Source of the DNA: an uncultured Eubacteriales bacterium | Lineage (GTDB): Bacteria > Bacillota > Clostridia > Peptostreptococcales > Anaerovoracaceae | Assembly: GCA_902774265.1 (NCBI GenBank) | Contig: CACYHR010000003.1 | Location: 1-62,900, forward strand | Length of the DNA stretch: 62,900 bases | Direction of reading: 5' to 3' | Shown here: piece by piece, positions 1,999 to 10,515 of the stretch | How the letters are laid out: every line of letters begins with the position of its first letter | Position numbering within the stretch: position 1 is the first letter of the stretch | Position numbers and translations under genes: made by a program | The notes under the pieces: model-generated | Told to the model about the DNA's origin: nothing | The model's database searches: none | The model's input: only the letters and a program-made list of their open reading frames with translations

Positions 1999-3333
1999 TT
2001 ATTTGAGGACGATCTTCTTGAATTTTTTCTTGCCCTTCTGCAGAACGAGTTCGCCGTCCTTGAAGCAGTCGAGGGTTACAGCGAATTTCTTGTCTGTGAT
2101 CTGTTCTCCGTTGATTCTTGCTCCGCCGCCCTGAATCGTTCTGTATGCTTCGGATGTCGATGGCTCAAGTCCTGCCTCTTTGAGAAGCGCTGCGAGTCCC
2201 ATTCCGTCACCTTCGAACTGATCCTTGTCAAATTCTGCTGTCGGCATATCTTCCGAAACTCCGCCGCCTGCAAAGATCTGACGGCTTGTCTCGAGAGCCT
2301 GCTTTGCCTTTTCCTCGCCGTGTACCAGCTTGGTTACTTCATAAGCAAGGATTTCCTTAGCCTCGTTGATTGCCGAGCCTTCGAGTGCGGACAGTCTGTT
2401 TACCTCGCTCATAGGCAGGAATGTCAGCATGCGAAGGCACTTGTTTACATCTGCGTCTCCGACATTTCTCCAGTACTGGAAGAAATCATATACAGAGCAC
2501 TTCGATTCATCGAGCCAGAGAGCTCCCTTTGCAGTCTTGCCCATCTTTTTGCCTTCGCTTGTTGTCAGCAGGGATACGGTAAGTCCGAATACTTCCTTGC
2601 CGCAGGTCTTACGGGTCAGGTCAACGCCTGCAATTATGTTGGACCACTGATCGTTTCCGCCAAACTGAGCTTTGAGGTCAAAGTCTCTTGCCATTACCAT
2701 GAAGTCGTATGCCTGAAGCAGCATATACGAGAATTCGAAGAAGGAAAGGCCCTCATCTCTGTCCATACGTGTCTTGAACGCATCAGCTCTCAGCATGGTA
2801 TTTACATTGAAATGTCTTCCGATCTCTCTCGCGAATTCAGTGAACTTGCAAGGTCTGATCCACTCCGCATTGTTGACGCTTACAGCATAGCCCGGCTTTG
2901 GCTCTCTGTTCTGGTGGCCCGGATGATAGACACCCTCGTTTCCTTCGTATTTCCACTCATCATCAAAATCAATGAATTTGTCAAAGAGCTTTTTGAAAGC
3001 TCTGCAGTTATCGTCGATAGTATTGATGGTCATTACCTGACGCATGTCACTGCGGCCTGACGGGTCTCCGATCTCTCCTGTGCCGCCGCCGAGTAGGAAT
3101 ACAGGAGTGTGTCCGTATTTCTGCATATACATCATAGTGATCATAGGAATGAAGTGTCCTACATGCAGGCAGTCTGCTGTCGGGTCAAACCCGATATAGA
3201 ATTTGATCTTTTCCTTGCCGAGCAGCTCTCTCAGAGCCTCGCCGTTGGTCGTCTGTTCGATCAGTCCTCTCTCCATCAGGACGTCATACACATTGGTGTG
3301 TTCGCTGACATTGTCAGGGATTAAGTTTTTCAT
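1999..3333 (-). CDS. tyrS: Tyrosyl-tRNA synthetase
   Basis: Class I aminoacyl-tRNA synthetase charging tRNA-Tyr. The 444-residue protein shows the Rossmann signature YIGFDPTADCLHVGH (HIGH box at about 57-60), GGGTGEIGDPSG, QFGGNDQW in the tyrosine/ATP pocket, the KMSKS-equivalent KKMGKT at about 262-267, and a C-terminal S4 RNA-binding domain (about 380-444). Residues about 123-150 (acidic, then HPGHQNREPKPG) are an insertion relative to typical bacterial TyrS of about 420 aa. The start at 3333 is supported by GGAAAGGAAG seven bases upstream; an upstream in-frame ATG at 3387 lies in the leader after the attenuator hairpin. It is preceded by a Tyr-codon leader peptide and an attenuator. Confidence 0.96.
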   Translation of the reverse strand: MKNLIPDNVSEHTNVYDVLMERGLIEQTTNGEALRELLGKEKIKFYIGFDPTADCLHVGHFIPMITMMYMQKYGHTPVFLLGGGTGEIGDPSGRSDMRQVMTINTIDDNCRAFKKLFDKFIDFDDEWKYEGNEGVYHPGHQNREPKPGYAVSVNNAEWIRPCKFTEFAREIGRHFNVNTMLRADAFKTRMDRDEGLSFFEFSYMLLQAYDFMVMARDFDLKAQFGGNDQWSNIIAGVDLTRKTCGKEVFGLTVSLLTTSEGKKMGKTAKGALWLDESKCSVYDFFQYWRNVGDADVNKCLRMLTFLPMSEVNRLSALEGSAINEAKEILAYEVTKLVHGEEKAKQALETSRQIFAGGGVSEDMPTAEFDKDQFEGDGMGLAALLKEAGLEPSTSEAYRTIQGGGARINGEQITDKKFAVTLDCFKDGELVLQKGKKKFKKIVLK

Positions 3334-3411
3334 CGATACTCTTCCTTTCCATTTTGCTTTCCGGATCCCGTGACAGCTGAAAAACAAACCATCACGGCTG
3401 ACTCTCCGGCC

Positions 3412-3445
3412 TTAATAAACGGCTCCGCAGTTTTGCTGCGGAGCC
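3412..3445 (-). terminator. Intrinsic terminator of the tyrS attenuator
   Basis: Minus-strand hairpin with perfect 10-bp arms GGCTCCGCAG (3445-3436) and CTGCGGAGCC (3430-3421), loop CAAAA, followed by GTTTATT. It lies between the leader peptide and tyrS, about 80 nt before the tyrS start. Its 5' arm and loop are exactly complementary to a 12-nt segment right after the leader stop codon. Confidence 0.8.
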
Positions 3446-3531
3446 GGAATCAACTTCTATGTTCGATCCTCATGCATTTCGCAGCAAAACTATGCTTCAA
3501 TCGAAGCCCTGTCATAATAATAGATTGCTGC
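3421..3531 (-). promoter_or_regulatory. trp-type transcription attenuator of tyrS (regions 1-4)
   Basis: Four mutually exclusive segments are visible on the minus strand. Region 1: GCAGCAA at 3531-3525, inside codons Ala8-Ala9-Ile10 just before the Tyr codons. Region 2: AGTTTTGCTGCG at 3491-3480, overlapping the leader stop. Region 3: CGCAGCAAAACT at 3440-3429. Region 4: the 3' terminator arm at 3430-3421. Region 1 pairs with 2 over 7 nt, region 2 pairs with 3 over 12 nt, region 3 pairs with 4 to form the terminator. A ribosome stalled at the Tyr codons would cover region 1 and free region 2 to block the terminator; one reaching the stop codon would cover region 2 and allow termination. The mechanism is inferred from this geometry. 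Confidence 0.75.
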
Positions 3532-3552
3532 TACGAGTCTGCGAGCGTTCAT
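3490..3552 (-). CDS. tyrS leader peptide with three tandem Tyr codons
   Basis: A 20-codon ORF: MNARRLVAAI then YYYDRASIEA, stop TAG at 3492-3490. Codons 11-13 are three consecutive TAT. It has a strong ribosome-binding site (AGAGGAGAG at 3557-3565) and starts about 36 nt after the predicted transcription start. Its position between a consensus promoter and an attenuator hairpin in front of tyrosyl-tRNA synthetase, and the match between its Tyr codons and the product's substrate, indicate a sensing peptide for charged tRNA-Tyr. Too short for standard ORF callers. Confidence 0.8.
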   Translation of the reverse strand: MNARRLVAAIYYYDRASIEA

Positions 3553-3594
3553 TTACTCTCCTCTCAAAATGCTTTTCCGATCAATACATTGAAA

Positions 3595-3623
3595 ATATTA
3601 TCACCGAGCGCGTTTAATGTCAA
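3595..3623 (-). promoter_or_regulatory. tyrS promoter
   Basis: TTGACA (3618-3623) and TATAAT-like TAATAT (3595-3600) with a 17-nt spacer on the minus strand; the expected transcription start is near 3588. The -35 box is close to the stop codon of the upstream SNF2 gene, so tyrS has its own transcription unit. Confidence 0.8.
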
Positions 3624-3637
3624 TGAACTATGATCCA

Positions 3638-6600
3638 TTAAGATATCAGCTCCATCAGTTCCTCTTTGCTCATTGAGCCGAGTGATCTTGTCTCACCGCT
3701 AAGCACTGCATCAGCAAGTTCTTTTTTTGTCTCCTGCAGTTTAACGATCTTTTCTTCAATCGTATCCTTTGCTATGAGCTTGAATACTGTGACATCCTTT
3801 GTCTGACCTATCCTGTGAGCTCTGTCAGTAGCCTGATCCTGCGCCGCTGTATTCCACCACGGATCATAGTGTATGACTATATCTGCACCGGTAAGATTTA
3901 GGCCGGTGCCTCCCGCCTTAAGGGAAATCAGGAATACCGGAGTGTCATCAGCATTGAATTCCCTGACAAGGCGCATTCTTTCCTCTTTGCTTGTCGAGCC
4001 TGTAAGCTTGAAATACGGTATTTCTTTCTTTTTCAGATCCTGCTCCAGCAATTCAAGCATTGAAGTGAACTGAGAGAAGAGCAGCATCTTGTGTCCCCCG
4101 TCTGCCGCGCTTTCGACGAGATCCAGACATGCTTCTTTTTTTGCCGATTCTCCTTTGTAATCATCAAATATCAATGACGGATCGCAGCATATCTGACGTA
4201 TCCTTGTGAGTTCCGCAAGGATCTCGATTTTTCCTGTGTTGAAATCTCCCTTCTCCTCAATCAGATTGCTGATCCGTATTGCCTGAGCATCATACAGCTT
4301 TCTCTGGCTGTCATCAAATCTAGCATATCGGATTTCCTCGATCTTATCAGGCAGATCCTTGAGCACGTCTTTTTTCTTTCGTCTCAGAATGAAAGGCGAG
4401 ATCATATTTTTGAGAGCTTCTGTTGCCGCGTCATCCCCGTACTTGCTTATCGGCAGTTCGAAAGTCTTGCGGAAATGTTCGTAATTGTACAGGAATCCCG
4501 GCATCAGATAGTCGAATATGCTCCACAGTTCGCTCAGCCTGTTTTCTATAGGCGTACCTGTCAGCGCATATCGATGCTCTGCGTGCACAAGCTTGACGGA
4601 TTTCGCTGCTGCTGCTTTTGCATTTTTTATGTACTGCGCCTCATCCAGGATCTGATGTGTGAATCTCAGATCCTCGTACAGATCAATATCTCTTTTCAGC
4701 AGATCATATGAGGTAACCAGTATGTCGTATTCTTTATAGTTTTCCAGGATATTCTTTCGGATGCTTTTCGTCCCTGCGACCGCAGATACAATGAGTTCCG
4801 GTGCAAAGCGTCCTATTTCTTCTGTCCAGTTATAGAGCACAGAACTCGGACAGACTATCAGAGCATGAAGACCATCCTGCTCAGCTGAATCCTTATAGGC
4901 AAGCAGCATCGTGATCGCCTGAATGGTCTTGCCGAGGCCCATATCATCTGCAAGTATTCCTCCGAAGCCTGCAGTTTCCAGTGTTCTGAGCCATCTGTAG
5001 CCGTAATCCTGATATGCCCTCAATTCACCGTTCAAACCCTCCGGAATATCATACTCGGCATCATTGATCGTTTTGAAGTCCCTTATCAGATTTCTGAAGC
5101 GGCGGTCCCTGCCTGCGACCAGTTCCTCATGACCCTCCAGCATTTTGTCAAGATACAGAGCTCTGTATGCCGGGATCTGCAGCTTTCCCTTGACAAAGTC
5201 CTTTATATCCGCACCCGATTTTTCCAGAATATCCATCAGGATATCCAGGGACTCATTCTCTTTGAGGTCTATAAATTCACCGCTTCTGAGCCTGTGATAG
5301 CTCTTCTTTTGCCTGTAGTTCTGAAGCAGCAAGGCCAGTTCCTCATAGGACATATCCCGTGTAAGTATATCCAGATTCAGGAGATCGCTTTCGACTGAAA
5401 CTCCGATCTGTACTGACGGAGTCTTCCTTATCCTGATCGAATCGAAATCATCGGTGCAGTGCACTTCGCCGAATGCCATCAGCTGATCAACACCGTTCTT
5501 CAGCAGTTCATATCTGGCATCATCCGAATCCTCGAGGATAAAGGCTTCACGTTCTCTGTCATAGCTTTCAAACATGCTTTCCAGCTTGTTGTAAACAGGT
5601 ATTTCCTGATCTACATCTCTGAAATCATCCAGAGGGAAATCATCTGTTTTGCCTCGAATTATCGCTATAATGTCATCATATTCCGCTCTTGCTTCACAGA
5701 TTATATCTCCTTCATCGACGTCGAGATAGAATTTGAATGCAGCTTCAGCAGGGATATATTTTTCAGCAGATGAGATCTCTGTTATCGTGAATACCGGATC
5801 CTCCCTGAGTTTTGGAAGTACACTGTAATAGAATTCAGCAGCTTTCTTTTTACCGATCTGAAGAAAAAACTTGTTGCTGTCATAACCTGTGTAGCATGCC
5901 TGTTTAAACGGTCTTATATGGCTCCAGGTCTCTTCATCGATTTCGCTCAGACAGCCGCTTTCGATAAAATACTTGCTCTTTACTCCGTCTATCACATGAG
6001 GAACTGATCCGCTTACCCGGACCAGATCAAGAACTCTCTTTCCATTCCTTGTGCTGATCTCCGTATCGACATCTACTGCCACATTCGGAAGAATCTTTGC
6101 AACTTTCAGCTCTTTCGGACTCTTGCTTTCTATCCCCTTGAACGGTATATTTCCGCCCTGCCTGTATTGTACGATAGTATCCACAGCGTCTCCTGTAAAC
6201 GGGATGCCTTTTTTCGTCTCGACGGTTCCGCTGTAATAATAAGATCGCTTTGTTTCAAGCTTTTTCTCTATGGCTCTGGTTCTCTTTACATCACGTTCGA
6301 TCAGATCATACAATTCTTTTGATTCCGGCGCAAAACGCTGCACTGCAAAGTCAATGCTGCCGCTCTTGCCCAGCTCATATTTGCCGCCTGAATTGACCGT
6401 ATCGTGGAGCTCGGTAAGATTTTTGACAATATACATTTTGCCGCCGTTTCCTATGCGGAATTCCAGATCGTATTGTCCCGGATCGACCTCCGTAATCCTC
6501 GGTTCGAGGGTAACAGTTCCTTCTTTTTCCTTTCCCGGATCTGAGGCAGCGCGTATTGATTCCGTACCGAAATTATTCAGAAAACTCAGGCCTCTGTAAT

Positions 6601-9438: not shown

Positions 9439-10515
9439 TTATTCCTCCTGGCCGAAATCCTTCATTTTAGCTGCCTGATCAGCAGTTATGAGTCCGTCCA
9501 CAGCCTCATCGATATCGCCGTCAAGGAACTGTTCGAGCTTGTACAGAGTGAGGTTGATCCTGTGATCGGTCACTCTGCCCTGCGGGAAGTTATATGTCCT
9601 GATACGCTCGGATCTGTCGCCGGATCCTACCTGGCTTCTTCTGTCTGCGGAAATCTTGTCATTCTGCTCCTGCACCATCTTGTCATAGAGTCTGGCCTTG
9701 AGTACTCTCATGGCCTTTTCCCTGTTCTGGATCTGGGACTTTTCGTCCTGACAGGTAACCACGATCCCTGTAGGCAGGTGAGTCATTCTTACAGCGGAGT
9801 CGGTCGTATTTACGCACTGTCCGCCGTTTCCGGATGCTCTGTAAACATCGACCTTTACATCGTTAGGGTTGATCTCTACTTCGACGTCGTCGACCTCAGG
9901 CAGAACAGCTACTGTAGCAGCCGAGGTATGGATACGTCCTGATGATTCGGTCTCAGGCACTCTCTGAACTCTGTGAACGCCGGACTCGAATTTGAGTCTT
10001 GAGTATGCTCCCTTACCCTTGATCATGACTACTGCTTCTTTGATACCGCCTATCCCGGTGTCGCTGATCTCAATGATCTCAGCCTTCCAGCGGCGGCGCT
10101 CCGCATATCTCAGATACATCCTCAGCAGGTCGTTTCCGAACAGTGCAGCTTCCTCTCCGCCGGTTCCTGCTCTGATCTCGAGGATTACGTTCTTGTCATC
10201 GTTAGGGTCCTTTGGCAGCAGCAGTATCTTGAGCTCTTCCTGAGCCTTCTCCATCTGCTCTTCGAGTTCTCTCGCCTCTTCCTTGGCCATTTCGCGCATC
10301 TCTTCGTCATCTTCCATATCGATGATCTCGCGGGCGTCAGCCAGATCGCTCTGCATCTTGCGGTAAGCCTCGTACGCCTTTACTATCGGCTCGATCTCTG
10401 CCATCTCCTTCATGTATTTCTGCCAGGTCTTCTGGTCAGCGATTATGGCAGGATCCGCCACTTTTTCTGCCAGTTCCTTATATTTTTCAGTTATAAAATC
10501 GAGTTTGTCGAACAT
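9439..10515 (-). CDS. prfA: Peptide chain release factor 1
   Basis: RF1 recognises UAA and UAG stops and triggers peptidyl-tRNA hydrolysis. The 358-residue protein has the PCRF coiled-coil domain, the codon-recognition P-x-T tripeptide in [13 protein letters not shown], the catalytic GGQ in [17 protein letters not shown] near 230, and the basic C-terminal RF domain. The GGQ glutamine is the substrate of PrmC, whose gene is a fusion partner elsewhere in this window. The leader contains a 5-bp hairpin (GCCGG/CCGGC) and a likely promoter at 10599-10627. Confidence 0.97.

Follow-up and report, generated by a model that had tools for sequence, protein, structure and literature searches.

The tyrosyl-tRNA synthetase gene (tyrS) in this genome of an uncultured clostridial gut bacterium is very probably controlled by a trp-type (ribosome-mediated) transcription attenuator, which would sense the supply of charged tRNA-Tyr. 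Comparison with related loci shows that a leader open reading frame (ORF) with tandem Tyr codons, a predicted 1:2 hairpin, a predicted 3:4 terminator, and a mutually exclusive 2:3 antiterminator are conserved in relatives, and from these features we infer a dependence on tRNA charging. An earlier note on this DNA had read the leader as a four-region attenuator of this kind, and that reading is supported by the anatomy of the leader, its conservation, its covarying helices, and the absence of a T-box at tyrS.

The leader upstream of tyrS

Throughout, the window is the whole stretch of DNA that was analysed (62,900 nt); the features of the leader are collected in Table 1. The product of tyrS scores 405 bits against TIGR00234, for which the cut-off is 113.8. 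The promoter with its spacing, the strong ribosome site, and the 20-codon ORF with three TAT codons were all found as the earlier note had described them.

Table 1. Features of the tyrS leader and its gene (window coordinates)
Feature	Position	Strand	Basis
-35 promoter hexamer TTGACA	3618..3623	-	Sequence; relatives show TTGACA followed by TATATT-like -10 variants
-10 promoter hexamer TAATAT, spacer of 17 nt	3595..3600	-	Sequence
Ribosome binding site of the leader ORF, purine-rich GAGAGGAGAG	3556..3565	-	Sequence
Leader peptide ORF MNARRLVAAIYYYDRASIEA*, 20 codons plus TAG	3490..3552	-	Sequence; kin leaders at 18/80 named tyrS loci
Tandem Tyr codons TAT TAT TAT	3514..3522	-	Sequence; Tyr retained with TAT/TAC exchange in relatives
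Region 1, GCAGCAA, partner of region 2	3525..3531	-	Fold, sequence, helix counts
Inner hairpin GCTTC/GAAGC within the 1:2 hairpin, 3' of the Tyr codons	3494..3507	-	Fold; both-side changes in 3/5 pairs
Region 2, AGTTTTGCTGCG, 5' strand of the antiterminator, overlapping the stop codon	3480..3491	-	Sequence, alignment
Region 3, CGCAGCAAAACT, within the terminator hairpin (5' arm and loop) and forming the 3' strand of the antiterminator	3429..3440	-	Sequence, alignment
Intrinsic terminator, 11-bp stem 3446-3436/3430-3420, then TTTATT	3414..3446	-	Fold, alignment, sequence
Possible outer helix P0, 5' strand, lying before the ribosome site of the ORF	3567..3589	-	Fold and partner swap, suggestive only
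Possible outer helix P0, 3' strand, in the spacer that separates region 2 from the terminator	3459..3479	-	Fold and partner swap, suggestive only
tyrS, tyrosyl-tRNA synthetase, 444 aa	1999..3333	-	Pfam tRNA-synt_1b; TIGR00234

Region 2 is the exact 12-nt complement of region 3, as had been claimed for a segment overlapping the stop codon and matching the terminator loop and 5' arm, and the TAG (3492-3490) runs into the start of region 2 at 3491, a placement that fits masking of region 2 by the ribosome. The 7-mer GCAGCAA occurs twice, once before the Tyr codons (3531-3525), where a segment able to pair with region 2 had been reported, and once within the terminator (3439-3433); region 2 therefore has two rival partners. 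The terminator hairpin is also there, with a stem of 11 bp rather than the 10 bp first given. In the predicted fold, the 1:2 hairpin is longer than first described, with an inner stem (GCUUC/GAAGC) and the Tyr codons in a bulge. The parts of a trp-type attenuator are all present, namely a leader ORF complete with start codon, ribosome site and stop codon, cognate tandem codons, an intrinsic terminator, an exclusive 2:3 antiterminator, a 1:2 hairpin, and a suitably placed stop codon.

In a shortage of Tyr-tRNA, the leading ribosome would halt at the Tyr codons and cover region 1, so that region 2 would pair with region 3 and the polymerase would continue into tyrS. With plenty of Tyr-tRNA, it would get to the stop codon and mask region 2, and the terminator would form. 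If the leader is not translated, the 1:2 hairpin would form and the terminator would win again.

An ORF containing YYY appeared in 30 of 20,000 dinucleotide shuffles of the 212-nt leader, whereas a terminator with a complementary segment of at least 10 nt appeared in none of the 20,000, either alone or together with such an ORF. When the window was cut into tiles of 212 nt (step 50, both strands), 11 tiles held a YYY ORF, and the whole architecture was found in one of those 11, the site itself. The leader folds alone at -59.3 kcal/mol (z -2.94; 2 of 200 shuffles were equal or better), and the minimum-energy fold holds the 1:2 hairpin and the terminator, that is, the off state.

The evidence for an additional outer helix, P0, in which sequence ahead of the ribosome site would pair with the spacer preceding the terminator, is no more than suggestive. 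Partner swapping among 15 leaders gave -12.5 kcal/mol for a leader's own partner vs -10.2 kcal/mol for swapped ones (p 0.0003), and most individual sequences were unremarkable against shuffles. Such a helix could restrict repeated translation of the leader.

Covariation of the helices

In an alignment of 17 tyrS leaders (A2), 90.0% of the cells in the 1:2, inner hairpin and terminator helices are paired and 11 of the 25 pairs show changes on both sides; none of 500 shuffles reaches any of the five measures used. Both-side changes affect 6 of the 10 terminator pairs and 3 of the 5 in the inner hairpin. With the terminator left out, 85.1% of cells are paired and 5 of 15 pairs are doubly changed, a number of double changes that 9 of 500 shuffles also reached.

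The 2:3 antiterminator is paired in 91.9% of cells, vs 39-69% when the strands are slid against each other, and one of its 11 pairs has changed on both sides. Its covariation is not significant in the tyrS leaders (shuffles were as good in 80 of 500 cases on percentage paired, 188 on double changes, and 39 on the covariation score), because the pairing is too conserved to be informative. The compensatory changes across regions 1-4 for which the earlier note advised a search are plain in the 1:2, inner and terminator helices but nearly lacking in the antiterminator.

Across 51 leaders from several target genes (A3), double changes rise to 20 of the 25 pairs (0 of 500 shuffles), in an alignment that was fitted to the structure model and is biased towards it. 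Partner swapping, which like the covariation tests is inflated by relatedness, gave 2:3 energies of -23.7 kcal/mol for own vs -17.8 kcal/mol for swapped partners in 54 non-redundant DAHP synthase leaders, and 1:2 energies of -17.6 vs -14.2 kcal/mol; no swap in 5000 was as good in either case. The corresponding counts were 7 (2:3) and 2 (1:2) of 5000 for 15 leaders of tyrosine phenol-lyase (TPL)-like genes, and 647 (2:3, not significant) and 61 (1:2, moderate) of 5000 for 11 tyrS leaders.

Conservation and apparent loss of the leader at tyrS

The distribution of the tyrS leader is patchy. Leaders of the same architecture, with at least three Tyr codons in tandem, precede tyrS at 18 of 80 named loci (5 of the 80 have less than 500 nt of upstream sequence), so the short tandem-Tyr ORF that the earlier note hoped to see conserved is indeed there; the other 62 loci, some of them in close relatives, are without it. 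An ORF with YY lies upstream at 20 of the loci, two of which (L054, L063) were judged to be non-leaders. A covariance model of the leader, R1, gives the same 18 leaders 66-123 bits, 16 of them having been built into R1 and the other two being near-copies.

Near-kin leader peptides read ..VAAIYYYDGAS..; that of L108 is MNRTLLVNNNNYYYYSS, and that of Mogibacterium kristiansenii strain WCA-MUC-591-APC-4B (L110, NZ_VUNA01000012.1) is MTTFLRNRSHKQAYYYLFS. Within the ORF, the alignment contains a gap of 3 nt. In the longest Tyr runs of 15 tyrS leaders, we counted 28 TAT and 18 TAC codons, Tyr staying constant while the codon varies. In L108, regions 1 and 2 have changed together, to ACAACAA and TTGTTGT. 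In L035, a gene for a transposase of 522 aa (L035:368-1936, with Pfam DDE domains) now separates the leader from tyrS.

Within the genus, R1 matches of more than 100 bits lie at tyrS in 17 of 47 genomes, one of them split from tyrS by the transposase gene (match positions were compared with named tyrS loci in six genomes). Matches of 66-75 bits lie at tyrS in another two genera of the family, and the 17 aligned leaders span three genera. A TyrS tree of 76 rows (the window and 75 of the 80 loci; L051, L082, L105, L107 and L111 were left out) places leader carriers both within the genus and outside it (L057, L110), with a bootstrap that had not yet settled and an L108 row, a misread frame with stops, whose placement is meaningless. 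Because carriers occur inside and outside the genus, the leader seems to predate the genus and to have been lost often.

A wider family of aromatic leaders

The tyrS attenuator appears to belong, as one branch, to a family of attenuators for aromatic amino acids in Clostridia. Among 349 genomes of the taxonomic family, R1 found matches in 62; 50 of the 54 rows away from tyrS were read, and 43 show a leader ORF rich in Tyr or Phe, while 7 are false positives without one (L151, L155, L166, L172, L175, L177, L182). A second model (R2), rebuilt from 51 leaders, found matches in 77 of 393 genomes sampled from the order, 76 of these in the family. Forty further order-level matches were read, leaving seven rows unread, and comprise 38 aromatic leaders and 2 loci before ilvB with Val/Ile-rich frames. 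Among 391 genomes sampled from the class, R2 found matches in 25, 22 of them from other orders. Here, 21 of 27 rows were read, and the 17 newly read loci include 15 DAHP synthase genes and 1 pheA gene with leaders, as well as one non-leader (L258). The 16 class genomes with such leaders span nine other families.

Sorted by gene, the leaders precede DAHP synthase (63), TPL-like genes (22), tyrA (3), pheA (2), and a TrpX-like substrate-binding protein gene (1), labels that rest on sequence signatures, with profile searches confirming representatives only; L164 was counted as TPL-like by its leader alone, as the contig ends there. Profile searches confirmed DAHP synthase at L149 and L245, tyrA at L168, L173 and L183, and pheA at L154 and L252, as well as the TPL-like L144 and the TrpX-like transporter L150. 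Control by this type of attenuator, whether its codons are for Tyr, for Phe or for both, thus seems to extend in relatives to the genes for TPL-like enzymes and DAHP synthase, to tyrA and pheA, and to one gene for a TrpX-like transporter.

The mean numbers of Tyr/Phe codons per leader are 3.7/0.4 for tyrS (15 leaders, the near-copies L036, L051, L082 and L109 being left out), 6.1/0.7 for TPL-like genes, 4.3/4.8 for DAHP synthase, 6.7/1.3 for tyrA, and 0/7 for pheA. Three or more Tyr occur in all 15 tyrS and all 22 TPL-like leaders, none of which has three or more Phe; both pheA leaders have three or more Phe and no Tyr. The DAHP synthase leaders have three or more Tyr in 62 of 63 cases and three or more Phe in 57 of 63, and the tyrA set is small (three leaders, one also with three Phe). 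As sets, the leaders of tyrS, of TPL-like genes and of DAHP synthase each use TAT as well as TAC. This match of codon to gene is the strongest single argument that the codons, and not the peptide, would be what is read.

The DAHP synthase leaders are found across the family and the class (L139, L149, L152, L156, L215, L244-L257 except L252, and others) and have covarying attenuator structures; related loci that were scanned gave no Rfam leader match. No Tyr/Phe leader precedes the DAHP synthase-tyrA operon of the window's own genome. The DAHP synthase homologue in that genome (L240:437-1438) reads GPSSLE where relatives have GPCSVE and scores 268.4 against TIGR01361, barely over the cut-off of 267.75; the enzyme is perhaps altered. 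In six genomes, no Phe leader was seen upstream of pheS. Tyr-rich leaders also occur before an AP_endonuc_2 family gene (L199) and the gene of an HD-domain protein (L134).

Alternative explanations

Many Firmicute tyrS genes are under T-box control, so one might suppose that a T-box riboswitch governs this tyrS and that the short ORF is incidental. The window's genome does have two T-box matches, one ahead of thrS and the other ahead of a trpB-like gene, each scoring below the Rfam cut-off. At tyrS, however, the T-box model search came out negative, as the earlier note expected: the Rfam scan of the window at gathering scores found neither a T-box nor any other family, and with E values up to 10 positions 3200-3800 returned only four weak, unrelated matches. 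The GGNTGGNACCRYG motif is missing from up to 600 nt upstream of the 80 tyrS loci, and the looser TGGNACCR is present at only two (L072, L106). A scan of the genus with Infernal's stricter filters yielded 57 T-box matches within 36 of the 47 genomes, and none of the 44 matches in the 34 genomes where tyrS could be placed shares a contig with it. We give the T-box practically no chance of being the regulator here. Rfam scans of 17 related loci likewise gave no leader family above the gathering cut-off and only one other element, a cobalamin riboswitch in L157.

Two further readings keep part of the structure and change its meaning. The leader could be an arrest peptide, stalling at high tyrosine by sensing the free amino acid in the ribosome and so switching the gene on; free-tryptophan sensing by TnaC is in print (in the accessible text of PMC8429421), and such a response would suit a tyrosine-degrading enzyme after the YYYYY leaders of TPL-like genes. 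Yet the peptides have little in common apart from their Tyr/Phe runs and the residues that region 1 encodes, the use of Tyr for tyrS, Phe for pheA, and both for DAHP synthase follows the codon supply of biosynthetic genes, and an intrinsic terminator with an antiterminator is there, all of which makes an arrest peptide very unlikely. The hairpin could, alternatively, be the terminator of the upstream gene beside a chance ORF, or the leader could be a functionless, decayed one, as the loci L038, L039 and L049, which retain promoter and terminator while the ORF is gone, might lead one to think. A consensus promoter sits between the upstream gene and the terminator, though, and ORF, Tyr codons and covarying helices are kept in 17 leaders from three genera; with the shuffles also failing to reproduce the architecture, we consider this explanation extremely improbable.

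A point that does count against the trp-type attenuator at tyrS is the phylum-level classification of Bacillota as runaway transcribers (in the accessible text of PMC13323073), which implies a weaker coordination of ribosome and polymerase. Within the window, 4 of 44 called genes have a terminator after the stop codon (at 8, 29, 40 and 44 nt), too few to serve as a sign of runaway transcription. An attenuator is workable only if the ribosome tracks the polymerase over about 100 nt, so that the leaders make coupling directly testable in Clostridia, and a coupling-dependent device across a class of this phylum is worth testing for that very reason.

The tyrosine phenol-lyase-like gene and possible ring salvage

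The window's genome has a second Tyr attenuator (contig C63 of genome G000, 9836-9973; L144:3537-3674, minus strand), with the leader MRMISVFTAEYYYYYRRTGVAVLL, before a TPL-like gene. The best structure match of the encoded lyase is tyrosine phenol-lyase (E 1e-120). Against the TPL equivalog, it scores 444 where the cut-off is 720.7, and its substrate is for that reason unproven. A classical Tyr attenuator activates its gene when tyrosine is low rather than high; with classical attenuation, the TPL-like enzyme would be made when tyrosine is short, which would suit synthesis from phenol and not breakdown.

Among the genus genomes, the TPL-like leader is found in 17 of 25 without a chorismate synthase match vs 5 of 22 with one (Fisher p 0.003, uncorrected for kinship and from incomplete genomes). 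It shows no association with TyrA at more than 60 bits, a presence threshold of the analyst's choice (p 0.53). The window's genome has matches for both chorismate synthase and tyrA.

A trpA match was found in none of the 47 genus genomes, with all 14 control genomes positive. The T-box match at the trpB-like gene of the window's genome (L113, contig C91 of G000) precedes a frame that is apparently broken in the contig. A trpB-like gene under a T-box match, in a genus without trpA matches, suggests salvage of the ring from indole, in parallel to the proposed salvage from phenol. We put forward only tentatively, and as somewhat doubtful, the full proposal that undescribed Tyr/Phe attenuators occur across the class and that a Mogibacterium-like genus has extended them to tyrS and to a TPL-like enzyme that would synthesize tyrosine from phenol, pyruvate and ammonia at low Tyr-tRNA. 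One further locus (L202:684-989) has a Tyr/Phe leader followed by what by eye appears to be a C-terminal TPL-like remnant, with no Pfam match.

Relation to known systems

Amino-acid control in Clostridia is usually described in terms of T-boxes, riboswitches and repressors, and among the closest known leader-peptide attenuators are those of E. coli trp, his, pheA and pheST. The tyrS leader shares with these the leader ORF, the tandem codons, the 1:2, 2:3 and 3:4 pairings, and the intrinsic terminator, and with pheST a tRNA synthetase operon as target. It differs from them in its Tyr codons, its tyrS target, its clostridial host, its lack of a match to any Rfam leader family, and the 7-mer shared by regions 1 and 3. 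In both E. coli pheST and the T-box of Firmicute tyrS, a synthetase is switched on by a lack of charged tRNA, a logic that the tyrS leader would share. The T-box has the same target and the same signal (uncharged tRNA-Tyr) as the leader described here, but it is an RNA that binds the tRNA and has no translated leader.

Peptide attenuators are not new to Firmicutes. In the accessible text of PMC9413887, His-leader attenuators are predicted for his operons of Peptostreptococcaceae, the B. cereus group and Erysipelotrichales; they have a short leader, 3-5 tandem codons, and a terminator with an antiterminator, as the tyrS leader does, but they read histidine at his genes, and that text offered no tyrosine or aromatic examples. 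For the Rli60 ilv-leu leader of Listeria monocytogenes, ribosome-mediated attenuation by codons is supported by mutants (PMC5864092, as far as its accessible text goes). It is likewise codon attenuation in a Firmicute, there for branched-chain amino acids and a single operon. Classical attenuation has been predicted for the synthetase genes trpS2 and leuS, with Trp and Leu codons and in Actinobacteria (accessible text of PMC1262725). A 2005 paper took putative tyrA attenuators from a web database, including Bacillus, Enterococcus, Streptococcus and Thermoanaerobacter, and its accessible text does not mention leader peptides (PMC1173090).

In the accessible parts of the open-access literature, subscription papers being mostly outside its scope, there was no attenuator with Tyr codons, nor one described for tyrS, for TPL or for the DAHP synthase of Clostridia. 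The earlier note's description of the leader as unusual or undescribed holds in this literature for the Tyr codons and tyrS, but not for peptide attenuators in Firmicutes as such. The aromatic set in Clostridia is apparently undescribed, and the claim of novelty should be narrowed, because Firmicute peptide attenuators are known, and at the same time widened to a Tyr/Phe regulon that spans the Clostridia. Such a regulon would be legible in clostridial genomes from gut and rumen, and its targets would include unusual ones such as tyrS and a TPL-like lyase.

Leaders at branched-chain genes

In the window's genome, ilvB (L273) is preceded by an Ile/Leu/Val-rich leader ORF, MIHNSVIMSIVLINLIISGLSIHIESRN.., and similar ORFs precede ilvB at L271, L274, L231 and L236. 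Terminator-like repeats can be seen by eye after these leaders, and a strict terminator search listed none. The branched-chain genes may use the same type of control, which suggests a division of labour within one genome between T-boxes (Thr and the trpB-like gene) and peptide attenuation (Tyr and branched-chain amino acids). Upstream of ilvB at L268, L270 and L272, we noticed by eye the reverse complement of a T-box-like motif (CCGCGGTACCACTCTTC), perhaps the divergent T-box of a neighbouring gene.
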